A stretch of 64,000 bases of DNA, from the NCBI GenBank assembly GCA_946402705.1, contig CAMIXG010000001.1, positions 62,001 to 126,000 of the forward strand. The letters are read 5' to 3'. The position numbers were made by a program, and so were the translations under genes. This document shows, in pieces, positions 55,502 through 63,799 of this stretch; the stretch's first letter is position 1, and each line of letters begins with the position of its first letter. The stretch comes from an uncultured Tissierellia bacterium (GTDB taxonomy: Bacteria > Bacillota > Clostridia > Tissierellales > Tissierellaceae). The notes under the pieces were generated by a model, which saw nothing but the letters and a program-made list of their open reading frames with translations, did not search any database and was not told the origin of the DNA.

Positions 55502-55906
55502 ATGAAGAGTGAAAGAGGTTATATATTATTTGAAAGTATCTTACTTATTCTAGTAATTTCCATAGTTGGAATGGCAATTTTAAATGCTGTCCATAAAGCT
55601 TCTAAATTGGAAGATAGAATACTTGTAAGACAAGATATAAATGATATTGATAGTAATTTTATGGAGTATTTTTATCTGGATAAGGATATAGAGGAAGACT
55701 TGAGTTATGAAAATATAGACATAAGTGAAATCTTTTCTGCACTTAAAAGTAGCTATAGAGTAGAAAAGAAAATTGTCCTAGATGATGTAATCATAGAAAT
55801 TATAAAGACAGATAAAAATCAATACCTTTGGGAGATAAATTATGAAATCAAAAGTAATAAGTACTCTGATATTAAAATTAAAAACAGAATCTATGTTAGA
55901 AGTTAG
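55502..55906 (+). CDS. Prepilin-like minor pilin
   Basis: 134 residues beginning M-K-S-E-R-G-Y-I-L-F-E-S-I-L-L-I-L-V-I-S: the Gly before Y, Glu at +5 and a long hydrophobic helix fit a prepilin. The C-terminal part is beta-rich without motif. Immediately follows the previous prepilin gene. Confidence 0.7.
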   Translation: MKSERGYILFESILLILVISIVGMAILNAVHKASKLEDRILVRQDINDIDSNFMEYFYLDKDIEEDLSYENIDISEIFSALKSSYRVEKKIVLDDVIIEIIKTDKNQYLWEINYEIKSNKYSDIKIKNRIYVRS

Positions 55907-56438
55907 AGATGAAAAAGCTTTTACAGTTTTTGAATTAGTTATAGGACTGTGCATTTTAGCCATAATATTTCCAATTTTTATTAGAATCTGTAAAATTAGT
56001 AATCTATATACTAATGAAATAGTGGCTAAAAATAGCGCCCATATGGAGATGGAAAATGCCCTAGAGTATATAGGGGACGAAATAAATAGGGCAAACTATA
56101 TAGTGGAAATTAAGGGGTTAGAAGCTAGTAATTTAGGATTTGTTTTAAAAACTATAAAGGATAAGAAAAGAGCATATATTACTTATGAGTTTAATAAGAA
56201 AACTAGAGAGATAAGAAGGCAGGCAGATTTAGATGAGATAGAGTCACCTTTTCATTTTAATAATTTAAAGGGAGATAATATAGTTTTAAGAAATGTTAAG
56301 TCAATAGAGGGTAGTAACTTTAATGAGAAACTGGGACTTGTAACTTTAGTTATAGAAGGAGAGATAGATAAGAAAACCATAAGGAAAACTAGGGTTATTA
56401 AGGTTGAAAAGGGGCTTAAGGATGATGAAGAATTCTAA
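55893..56438 (+). CDS. Prepilin-like minor pilin (GspJ/PilW-like)
   Basis: I place the start at ATG 55893 (181 residues, M-L-E-V-R-D-E-K-A-F-T-V-F-E-L-V-I-G), inside the previous gene by 14 bases; an upstream ATG at 55842 would add 17 residues. A-F-T-V-F-E-L-V is a prepilin-type site with Ala instead of Gly at -1. The rest contains the pseudopilin-like pattern M-E-N-A-L-E-Y-I-G-D-E-I-N-R-A. Spacing implies coupling. Confidence 0.7.
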   Translation: MLEVRDEKAFTVFELVIGLCILAIIFPIFIRICKISNLYTNEIVAKNSAHMEMENALEYIGDEINRANYIVEIKGLEASNLGFVLKTIKDKKRAYITYEFNKKTREIRRQADLDEIESPFHFNNLKGDNIVLRNVKSIEGSNFNEKLGLVTLVIEGEIDKKTIRKTRVIKVEKGLKDDEEF

Positions 56439-57390
56439 GGGATCTATTTCTCTGAGTGGAATTATTATATTATTGCTGGCCCTAATTATGGTTATGGCTG
56501 GAACTAAAACCATCTTGAATCGGTATACACTATTATCTTTAAAAAATAAGTCTAATGAGTTAAGGAGAGATTTAAATAATAGTATTTTATTAGCTGTCTA
56601 TGAGGAAACTTATTTTAAGGAAAGCTTAAATCAGTTAGCAAATCAGTATAGAAGGGGTCACTTTATTGGCCTAGATGGAAGTTTAAAAATAAGGGATGGT
56701 ATTAAGACTCAGCTGGTAAACTGGGAAACGGAAGGAACTGTAGATACTAATAGAATTAATTTTTCAGCCAGAAATCAAAAAAATGGTCTAAGTGCTTTAG
56801 TTAAGTATACTTTTACTAGAGTAAATCCAATTTTTCTTTCAAAAAATCCAGTAGATTTACAGGAAGATGAGATTGAGTTTATAGATAAAAATATAGTGGC
56901 GAAATATGGAGAAAAAGAATATTATAATAAAAATCTAGAATATTTTATAGGTGAAACCGGAGGATATAGTCTGGAAAATTTGGATACTCATCCTACCATT
57001 GAAGGTTTTCATGAGAAAAAGTTCTTTAATAGTAGGCAGCTTTATCTTATAATTAAAAATGAAAATGAAAAATCTAGGCTTACAGTAGATAAGGTTAAGT
57101 TGTATGATGATGAAGTCTTATATAAACCCCTATATTTAAATGGAGTAATCTATATAGATGGAGATTTGTTTGTGAAAAATGAATTCGATTTTAGGGGGAT
57201 ACTAATAGTAAATGGAGATATAAAGGTAGAAGCAGGAAGTAAGTTGAGTGTAGAAGGTTTCTTAAAATCATCTAGTATAAGTGGTGACTATAGTTATATA
57301 TATGATAAGACAGTTGTATTTAAAGATTATGGAAGCTATATACCAGGGTTTATTCATTTTAAATTGGAAAACATAAGGAGTGAAAAGTAG
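56422..57390 (+). CDS. Large pilus-associated protein with N-terminal membrane helix (PilX-like, tentative)
   Basis: About 322 residues from ATG 56422 with AAAAGGGG upstream; a TTG at 56404 is an alternative. Begins S-K-G-S-I-S-L-S-G-I-I-I-L-L-L-A-L-I-M-V, a hydrophobic helix like pilin-associated proteins but without the canonical Glu+5. The C-terminal half has regular I-Y-I-D-G-D-L-F-V-K and I-L-I-V-N-G-D-I-K-V strands, like a small beta-solenoid (bactofilin-like). Last gene of the operon before aroK. Function inferred only from context. Confidence 0.6.
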   Translation: MMKNSKGSISLSGIIILLLALIMVMAGTKTILNRYTLLSLKNKSNELRRDLNNSILLAVYEETYFKESLNQLANQYRRGHFIGLDGSLKIRDGIKTQLVNWETEGTVDTNRINFSARNQKNGLSALVKYTFTRVNPIFLSKNPVDLQEDEIEFIDKNIVAKYGEKEYYNKNLEYFIGETGGYSLENLDTHPTIEGFHEKKFFNSRQLYLIIKNENEKSRLTVDKVKLYDDEVLYKPLYLNGVIYIDGDLFVKNEFDFRGILIVNGDIKVEAGSKLSVEGFLKSSSISGDYSYIYDKTVVFKDYGSYIPGFIHFKLENIRSEK

Positions 57391-60940: not shown

Positions 60941-61783
60941 TTGGATTTAAATAAGGAACTGAAAAGATTAATAGATATATTAGATTTAGAGCTAAAAAAC
61001 TATATAAAAACTGATGATAAGTTTGAAAAAACAATAGTAGAAGCTATAGAATATAGTTTATTTACTGGAGGTAAAAGGATTAGGCCCATACTATGTTTAA
61101 AGGCATACGAATTATTTGCTTCTGATGATTACAGGGAAGCTATACCCTATGCACTGGCTACTGAAATGATACATACTTATTCCTTAATCCATGATGATTT
61201 ACCAGCCATGGATAATGATGATTATAGAAGAGGTAAATTAACTAGCCATAAAAAATTTGGAGAAGCTATGGCGATACTTGCAGGAGATGGACTTCTTAAT
61301 CTGGCTTTTGAATTATTATTGAATAATATAAAAGATGAAAAAGACATATTGGCATCTAGAGAAATAGGAAAATATTCAGGTATACATGGTATGGTATCTG
61401 GACAGGTTGTAGATTTACATATTGAAAATAAAAGCGAAGAAAGTTTATTGTATATGTATAAAAATAAGACTGCAGCTCTGATACAAGCTGGTATAGTAGC
61501 TGGATCCATAAGAGGGTGTGCATCCAAGGATGAAATAGCTTTAATGAGAGAATTTGGGTATAATTTAGGTATGGCATATCAAATAAAGGACGATTTTTTA
61601 GACCTAGAAGAAGATGAGGATATAGATAAAATAACCTATATTTCAGTTTATGGAAAAGAAAAGGCTAAAAGAGATTTACTTGAATTTGGAAGCAAGGCTC
61701 TTAAAAATTTAAGTGAGCTTGAGAATAGAAATATAGAGTTTTTTGAAGAACTGATAGAGAAACTTGAAATTAGAAAGTTTTGA
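60941..61783 (+). CDS. ispA: Farnesyl diphosphate synthase (geranyltranstransferase)
   Basis: 280 residues from TTG 60941 with GGAGG upstream. First Asp-rich motif D-D-L-P-A-M-D-N-D-D, second D-D-F-L-D-L-E-E-D; K-R-I-R-P motif near 44-50. It makes C15 isoprenoid diphosphate for undecaprenyl and quinone lipids. Directly before the OLE RNA, the conserved location (ispA-OLE-oapA) known from other Firmicutes. dxs is missing downstream. Confidence 0.94.
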   Translation: MDLNKELKRLIDILDLELKNYIKTDDKFEKTIVEAIEYSLFTGGKRIRPILCLKAYELFASDDYREAIPYALATEMIHTYSLIHDDLPAMDNDDYRRGKLTSHKKFGEAMAILAGDGLLNLAFELLLNNIKDEKDILASREIGKYSGIHGMVSGQVVDLHIENKSEESLLYMYKNKTAALIQAGIVAGSIRGCASKDEIALMREFGYNLGMAYQIKDDFLDLEEDEDIDKITYISVYGKEKAKRDLLEFGSKALKNLSELENRNIEFFEELIEKLEIRKF

Positions 61784-61787
61784 GTAA

Positions 61788-61816
61788 TTGAAACTTATAT
61801 TTCATTATAGTATAAT
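61788..61816 (+). promoter_or_regulatory. Consensus promoter of the OLE RNA
   Basis: TTGAAA (61788-61793), 17-base spacer, TATAAT (61811-61816): a near-perfect sigma-A promoter starting 4 bases after the ispA stop. Initiation is expected near 61823, exactly where the 5' arm of the terminal stem begins. Confidence 0.8.
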
Positions 61817-61822
61817 ACTTAA

Positions 61823-62372
61823 AGGTGGTGCAGTATCCTAGTCAATGCGACTGCTCTGGAAGACGGGGCTAAAAATCCGTTGAAGAGCACATCGATGAAG
61901 TTTCTTGTATAGGCTTCTGACGCCCAGTCGGGGGTTTGTGCAGGGAGTAAGAAAGATGGGGCGATCTGCAATGGCATGCAGGCGATGACCCTACTTTCGT
62001 GGAGACATGACTAAGGTCGTGATAAACCTACTTTTTGAATAAATTAGTAGAAGTAGCTTGCTTTGAGCGAGATTAGGCAGATGGCAAGCCATCCATAATT
62101 TCAAAAGGGCCCAAGATTTTATGGGTTTTGTTGCCGAAACCTATTTTGCAAAAGAAGCTAAGGAGTAGTCAATTTGTTGAGGAAAACTCCTAGGCTGTTC
62201 GAAAGAGGCAGATTGTGGATTACAGTGCGGCCTAAGTGGCGATCCAGTTGTACCATTGGCGACAAGGTATTGATAGGTTTAAAGGGAAACCGCTGTTATG
62301 GTGACAGACAGCACTTATTAGGGAAAACCTACTGGACCAAAGCCGTAAGATTTACACAATTTGTTACCACCT
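61823..62372 (+). ncRNA. ole: OLE RNA (ornate, large, extremophilic)
   Basis: About 550 bases, visibly GC-richer than the neighbouring genes, with many short hairpins and no plausible protein. AGGTGGT at 61823-61829 is perfectly complementary to ACCACCT at 62366-62372, closing the RNA into one domain. It stands between ispA and a gene for a four-helix membrane protein of the OapA type, the position described for OLE RNA in Bacillus halodurans and other Firmicutes. OLE RNA forms a membrane-bound ribonucleoprotein with OapA and is linked to stress tolerance. Identification is by locus and structure; a covariance-model search (Rfam OLE) is the decisive test. Confidence 0.85.
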
Positions 62373-62375
62373 ATT

Positions 62376-62408
62376 AAATAGCTGATAGCCTTAGGCTATC
62401 AGCTATTT
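62376..62408 (+). terminator. Long perfect hairpin after the OLE RNA
   Basis: AAATAGCTGATAGCC (62376-62390) and GGCTATCAGCTATTT (62394-62408) pair perfectly around TTA. The tail AATATTA is not U-rich, so some read-through into oapA is likely; the hairpin may also mark the 3' processing end of the RNA. Confidence 0.75.
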
Positions 62409-62427
62409 AATATTATAGGAGGAAAAT

Positions 62428-63003
62428 ATGAAAAAGAAAAAATCAATTAGTGAAAGATTTAATTTAAAATGGGTTAAGTTTATAAGTTTCTGGACTTTTA
62501 TCTTAGCTGCCTTATTTACAGTGATAAGTAATGAATTGGTTACAAAACTTAATATAATTCCAGCCTTTCTGGTTTTAATAGTATTTATATTAATTGGGAT
62601 AATATTTGATATAATAGGTATAGCGGTTACAACAGCAGAAGAAAAACCCTTCCATGCTATGGCGGCCAACAAGGTAGTAGAGGCTAGATATGCTATAAGA
62701 TTAGTTAGAAATGCTAGTCAAGTATCTAACTTTTGTAATGATGTTATAGGAGACATAAGTGGGATAATTTCAGGTGCTATAGGTACAAATATAGTATTTA
62801 ATATTATAGCCCAATATAAGAGCTTAAATGGAGTAGTACTTTCTTTAGTGATAACTTCACTAATAGCATCTATAACAGTTGGAGGTAAGGCTATTGGTAA
62901 ATCTGTAGCCATGGAAAACTATGAACAGATATTACACTTTATATCTAAGATTTTATATTTCTTAGATACAAGGGTTGGAATAAAAATAATGAAGGAAGAT
63001 TAA
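62428..63003 (+). CDS. oapA: OLE-associated membrane protein A (OapA)
   Basis: 191 residues with a basic start (M-K-K-K-K-S-I-S-E-R-F) and about four hydrophobic segments: F-I-S-F-W-T-F-I-L-A-A-L-F, I-I-P-A-F-L-V-L-I-V-F-I-L-I-G-I-I-F, D-I-S-G-I-I-S-G-A-I-G-T, G-V-V-L-S-L-V-I-T-S-L-I-A. Between them lies A-E-E-K-P-F-H-A-M-A-A-N-K-V, a loop expected on the cytoplasmic side. OapA binds OLE RNA and keeps it at the membrane. AGGAGG precedes the ATG, 19 bases after the hairpin. The next gene (tlyA) begins 2 bases later. Confidence 0.85.
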   Translation: MKKKKSISERFNLKWVKFISFWTFILAALFTVISNELVTKLNIIPAFLVLIVFILIGIIFDIIGIAVTTAEEKPFHAMAANKVVEARYAIRLVRNASQVSNFCNDVIGDISGIISGAIGTNIVFNIIAQYKSLNGVVLSLVITSLIASITVGGKAIGKSVAMENYEQILHFISKILYFLDTRVGIKIMKED

Positions 63004-63004
63004 T

Positions 63005-63799
63005 ATGAAAGATAGAGCAGATGTTGTTCTATATAAGGAAGGTTATGTAGAGAGCATAAGATTGGCACAAAGTTATATAATGCAAAACCTCGTTTTAATA
63101 GAGGATAAGCCTATAGAAAAGGCAGGGCAGCAGATAGAGTATAATTCTAATATTAGAATAAAGGGTAAAAAGCATCCCTATGTATCAAGGGGAGGGCTTA
63201 AGATAGAAAAAGCAATCAAGGATTTTTCCATAGACTTAGATGGAAAAACATGTTTGGATATAGGTGCGTCAACAGGTGGCTTTACAGATTGTATGCTAAA
63301 GTTTGGTGCAAGTAAAATCTTTGCAGTAGATGTTGGCTATGGACAATTAGCATGGAGCTTACAGTCTGATGATAGAGTTATTGTAATGGATAGAACAAAT
63401 ATCAGAAATGTTAAGGTTGATAATCTGGAAGGACAAGTAGATTTTATAACTGCTGATGTATCCTTTATATCCTTAAAGATAGTCCTACCTGTTATAGATG
63501 AACTTTTAAAAGAAAATGGAAGTGGAGTAATCTTGATAAAACCTCAATTTGAAGCAAGTAAGGATGAGGTTGGAGAAAAGGGAATAGTAAGGGAAAAGGC
63601 AACACATGTGGAAGTTCTTAAAAATATTGTTTGTGAAATAGAAGAAAATAATTTTTATATAAAAAATATGACATATTCACCCATAACTGGAGCCACAGGA
63701 AATATAGAATTCTTAGCTGAAATTATCAAAACTGGTCAAGTAAATAGTTTTGACATAGAAAGTTTGGTTGATGAGGCTCATGCAAAGTTTATAATCTAG
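63005..63799 (+). CDS. tlyA: TlyA-family rRNA methyltransferase (hemolysin A-like)
   Basis: 264 residues. N-terminal S4-like domain (R-A-D-V-V-L-Y-K-E-G, V-S-R-G-G-L-K-I-E-K-A), then the SAM-binding FtsJ-like domain with C-L-D-I-G-A-S-T-G-G-F-T-D-C-M, V-D-V-G-Y-G-Q-L and I-K-P-Q-F-E-A. TlyA 2'-O-methylates rRNA; some homologues were named hemolysins. It follows oapA and precedes recN, as in other Firmicutes apart from the missing dxs and argR. Confidence 0.93.
   Translation: MKDRADVVLYKEGYVESIRLAQSYIMQNLVLIEDKPIEKAGQQIEYNSNIRIKGKKHPYVSRGGLKIEKAIKDFSIDLDGKTCLDIGASTGGFTDCMLKFGASKIFAVDVGYGQLAWSLQSDDRVIVMDRTNIRNVKVDNLEGQVDFITADVSFISLKIVLPVIDELLKENGSGVILIKPQFEASKDEVGEKGIVREKATHVEVLKNIVCEIEENNFYIKNMTYSPITGATGNIEFLAEIIKTGQVNSFDIESLVDEAHAKFII

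Follow-up and report, generated by a model that had tools for sequence, protein, structure and literature searches.

Full-length OLE RNA, adjacent oapA and a conserved 3' hairpin in a bacterium of the Tissierellaceae neighbourhood

Introduction

Does the GC-rich and apparently non-coding stretch that separates ispA from a small membrane protein gene in this DNA encode an OLE RNA, and how are the two ends of this RNA defined? OLE is a large membrane-bound bacterial RNA for which we know of no biochemical function. The window, i.e. the whole stretch of 64,000 nucleotides that was analysed, belongs to an assembly of 1.76 Mb in 32 contigs (87% complete). Its source organism is from the Tissierellaceae neighbourhood and, judged by these nearest relatives, a mesophilic-type anaerobe, as had been supposed from the letters alone, is plausible.

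Results

Identification of the OLE RNA gene

The presence of an OLE RNA, proposed by a sequence-only reading of the same DNA, was borne out by the Rfam covariance model RF01071, which matched 61809-62386 with 453.4 bits (E 9.8e-131, gathering threshold 50) over positions 1-616 of its 616. In the search of the whole assembly with this model, OLE was found as a single copy. The gene order xseA-xseB-ispA-ole-oapA-tlyA-recN is the usual place of OLE, and the features of the locus are the following:

60941..61783, + strand: ispA-type polyprenyl (farnesyl) diphosphate synthase gene (Pfam polyprenyl_synt 1.9e-48; NCBIfam FPPsyn 5.1e-78, slightly below its cut-off)
61781-61783, + strand: stop codon of ispA
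61788..61816, + strand: sigma-A-type promoter of ole, TTGAAA-N17-TATAAT (11/12 consensus matches)
61823..62373, + strand: OLE RNA from P1 to P1, ~551 nt, with a predicted 5' end (RF01071; cmscan match given above)
61823..61829, + strand: 5' strand of stem P1, AGGTGGT, paired with 62366-62372 (covariation over 105 OLE loci)
62107..62112, + strand: GGGCCC palindrome of the P9 loop, expected to serve as kissing loop of the dimer (position in the RF01071 alignment)
62366..62372, + strand: 3' strand of stem P1, ACCACCT
62372..62412, + strand: conserved 3' hairpin with 19-bp arms, loop TTA and core GCTGATAGC/GCTATCAGC; the U-tract behind it is weak
62417..62422, + strand: ribosome-binding site of oapA, AGGAGG, read from the sequence
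62428..63003, + strand: oapA, OLE-associated membrane protein A, 191 aa (weak CNNM match, 48 relatives, invariant residues)
63005..63799, + strand: tlyA-type rRNA 2'-O-methyltransferase gene, usual neighbour of OLE/oapA (TIGR00478 9.8e-68)

An RNA of about 550 bases, richer in GC than its surroundings and devoid of a convincing ORF, had been described, and each of these properties was recovered. The stretch 61823-62373 counts 551 nt from P1 to P1 (~590 nt including the 3' hairpin), its GC content is 45% against a window average of 29.5%, no other 551-nt stretch of the 64 kb reaches 45% GC, and no ORF with a family match was detected inside the OLE region, the longest being a 67-aa TTG frame. 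This length also fits the claim of an RNA shorter than that of B. halodurans, the H. halodurans one being reported at ~630 nt (PMC9723947). The folding energy of the region beats that of shuffled sequences (z = -8.1). The ends AGGTGGT and ACCACCT, rightly read as closing the RNA, form a covarying stem of 7 pairs, known as P1 in the literature. The first 7 pairs of P1 are kept in 93-105 of 105 distinct OLE loci, both sides having often changed together (e.g. T-A/C-G/A-T and G-C/A-T/T-A), and the Rfam structure line shows this stem as unpaired.

OLE RNAs are divided into a full-length type and variants 1 and 2 (PMC11332333). In the RF01071 alignment, the window copy is of the full-length type, P7 and P8 being both present, though short. 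The outer part of P7 is reduced to 3 nt in place of 31 model positions and the OLE score is below that of most relatives, as could be expected from a decayed or non-functional copy; such decay is nevertheless very improbable, given that all the major helices and conserved loops of full-length OLE are retained, that oapA is intact and that P7 length differs among known OLE RNAs (PMC11332333). The retained loops include the conserved A-rich P4 loop (CTAAAAATCCG, at 61869) and the P9 palindrome, which have been described as dimer contacts (PMC12286853, PMC12265935), a GGCC palindrome being located at bridge B3 (PMC12286853). The identity of the locus as OLE with OapA is certain for practical purposes, the RNA class being already known, and the data are almost certainly best explained by an ole gene of the full-length type that lies, together with its partner oapA, at the usual locus. 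Among the 150 relatives searched, 68 carry OLE, with a patchy distribution inside the family.

In another part of the window (55842-57390), prepilin-like N-terminal sequences of the type IV pilus or competence type were observed upstream of aroK and efp.

Promoter and transcription of ole

The TTGAAA-N17-TATAAT element that had been placed four bases after ispA is exact as written, beginning four bases past the ispA stop codon, and it is the sole exact copy in the window. Because the scan of the window as a whole revealed promoter-like sites no more frequently than in shuffles, the weight rests on a comparative promoter test, in which a score of at least 11 (maximum 13, extended -10 counted) was obtained at the same position in 57% of 114 OLE loci versus 0.3% of shuffled upstream sequences. 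The TG of an extended -10 is present in most relatives and missing from the window promoter.

Transcription of the RNA independently of ispA, as first suggested, is supported by comparison for one part, a promoter of its own for ole, a comparable one being present in most relatives. The independence itself holds partly, since no terminator between ispA and ole was found by the sequence scan of the locus and a single polycistronic RNA that covers the cluster is made as well in H. halodurans (PMC12265935). In that species, OLE is presumed to be processed from the long transcript (PMC12265935, PMC9723947). These observations, together with the tight gene spacing, would be in agreement with an ole RNA that comes mainly from a long xseA-recN transcript and is excised by RNases, the promoter and the hairpin having a minor role. 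This origin is improbable in view of the near-consensus promoter present at the same position across the order and, by analogy with work in other species, the RNA would come mainly from its own promoter.

Structure and conservation of the 3' hairpin

Directly after P1, the arms 62372-62390 and 62394-62412 form a hairpin that had been described as perfect with 15-base arms; the perfect pairing was confirmed, and the arms really extend over 19 bp. With a pattern in which G-U was allowed at two positions, the hairpin core was found in 55/68 of the OLE-bearing relatives versus 2/82 of those without OLE (Fisher p 9e-26, shared ancestry being ignored). By coordinates, the hairpin of OLE-bearing relatives is always located at the OLE 3' end, except for an extra copy elsewhere in one genome and for G090, where the 3' part of OLE lies on a different contig from the scored match. 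Considering 126 distinct OLE loci of all groups, the core is present in 63, at 35-46 nt past a fixed anchor point close to the 3' end (one row starts earlier, through an overlapping match). The exact core was detected in 8 of 391 class-wide genomes, five times at OLE and three times at unrelated places, and it occurs at OLE in two families outside the order (f41 and f94).

A dispersed repeat was ruled out, the hairpin being normally present at one place per genome, as was a common chance terminator, the exact motif being found away from OLE in just 3/391 class-wide genomes. A DNA operator is unlikely with an arm spacing of 2 to 16 nt. No description of an OLE terminator or 3' hairpin was found in the OLE literature searched, several founding papers lying outside this search, and the 3' hairpin of OLE may be new.

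In family f18, a second arm-like stretch (AAAGCTGATAGTATAA, AAAGCTGACAGTATAA) was observed shortly after the OLE hairpin at loci L093 (G076) and L122 (G068); ahead of oapA, it could possibly pair as an alternative to the regular arm.

Loci without ole and oapA, and split OLE loci

The two OLE-less relatives in which the hairpin was found are G017 (L113/L151, same family) and G048 (L189, another family). Their gene order is xseA-ispA-hairpin-tlyA-recN: between ispA and tlyA the hairpin alone persists, ole and oapA having disappeared. Both genes have been lost jointly in these genomes, probably by two separate losses. Since G017 and G048 keep the hairpin after this event, the data suggest that, as a stand-alone terminator, it is of use or can at any rate be tolerated. 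The two genomes are natural ole/oapA deletion strains for comparative work.

In the related strains G085 and G090, the assemblies break at the same spot in OLE, which seemingly consists of two pieces with 63 nt in common (L148 and L152/L042 in G085, L149 and L041 in G090). A mobile element splitting OLE in G085 was ruled out, as the N runs at both break points are scaffold joins.

Terminator or functional domain

Judged from sequence, the best reading of the hairpin is an intrinsic terminator of OLE, a U-rich tail being present after most of the distinct hairpins (49/57 begin with TTT). In the window, the tail TATTTAATATT is a poor U-tract, and the hairpin with its tail TATTTAAT was not called as a terminator by the consensus scan; this U-tract is decayed. 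The hairpin would end OLE transcription with a leaky read-through, which would keep the expression of oapA below that of the RNA. With the poor U-tract found here, more read-through would be expected, or the 3' end would be made by processing.

In the 57 distinct hairpins, arm pairs 2, 3, 4 and 8 never vary (57/57) and the remaining inner pairs change almost solely to G-U. The loops, in contrast, come in 42 versions with lengths of 2 to 16 nt; P1, a few bases off, swaps its pairs freely. This conservation, the core retained in the window despite the decayed U-tract and the occurrence of the core at OLE outside the order would point to a domain with a function in the mature RNA, its sequence being read by a protein or another RNA, beyond a terminator. 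We consider such a domain possible and rather unlikely: the hairpin survives in the two genomes without ole and oapA, roughly half of the 126 distinct OLE loci, among them those of Bacillaceae and of many other Clostridia, are devoid of it, and a terminator also fits most loci. It is with the same reserve that GCUGAUAGC-loop-GCUAUCAGC could be regarded as an undescribed, sequence-specific OLE 3' element which a partner recognises in the Tissierellales neighbourhood and which can persist once ole and oapA are lost. The conserved hairpin, preferably read as a terminator, should fix the true OLE 3' end in the whole order.

OapA and other protein partners

The adjacent OapA with a basic N-terminus that had been announced is encoded at 62428-63003. 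Its N-terminal sequence is MKKKKSISERFNLK, and 48 relatives were recovered in other genomes by protein search alone, nearly all encoded directly downstream of an OLE. The protein is ~40-65% identical to other OapA proteins, the closest ones (63%) being from Tissierellaceae genomes. OapA is a relative of MpfA, a Mg transporter, and no other CNNM-like protein was found in the assembly. A DxxxD motif is present at residues 105-109 (D105 and D109) and is invariant in 89 OapA sequences; this set was gathered with a FD..G and PFH filter, so that the selection accounts for part of the conservation of these two motifs, and DxxxD played no part in the filtering. In H. halodurans, the PM1 mutant of OapA is altered at D100 and D104 (PMC9723947). 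From their spacing, D105 and D109 of the window protein would be the equivalent residues.

Full-length CNNM proteins of ~430-456 aa were observed in the OLE-positive relatives G001, G006, G009, G011, G012, G016, G019 and G023. The published anticorrelation between OLE and MpfA was not reproduced inside the family with a broad CNNM model, several OLE-positive relatives having full-length CNNM proteins. These proteins may be MpfA proper, and the anticorrelation may be weaker in this family.

The gene of OapB is located between adk and infA (L083:11720-12001; best match PDB 7k9b 'OLE-associated protein B', E 1.4e-8) and a bS21 gene is present in the genome. No match to OapC (YbxF; L7Ae family) was found in the 87%-complete assembly; rpsL, its usual neighbour, is also absent, and the missing OapC therefore carries no meaning. 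The rpoC-rpsL region appears to fall in an assembly gap (G000, C5 start). By analogy with work in other species, OLE would fold and dimerise via the A-rich P4 loop and the GGGCCC kissing loop of P9, bind an OapA dimer anchoring the RNA at the membrane, recruit OapB, OapC and bS21, and serve in the response to stress, Mg/Mn and carbon source.

Discussion

The window OLE adds one species to a class that is among the largest structured bacterial RNAs lacking a known biochemical task. Its partner protein falls within the OapA family of CNNM-like membrane proteins, with the same position after ole, the basic N-terminus and the E.PFH and DxxxD motifs; as expected for OapA, CBS and CorC domains are missing, and no notable difference was observed. 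Like intrinsic terminators, the OLE hairpin is stable and followed by a U-rich sequence in most relatives. Unlike the usual ones, its stem sequence is itself conserved and associated with OLE, and the window copy has a poor U-tract. The closest known RNAs are the full-length OLE of C. acetobutylicum (577 nt; PMC12286853) and H. halodurans, with which the window copy shares sequence, secondary structure, P1, the dimer-loop palindrome and the ispA and oapA neighbours. It differs from them by a shorter P7 and a length of 551 nt from P1 to P1, and it carries the conserved 3' hairpin that is absent from the Rfam model.
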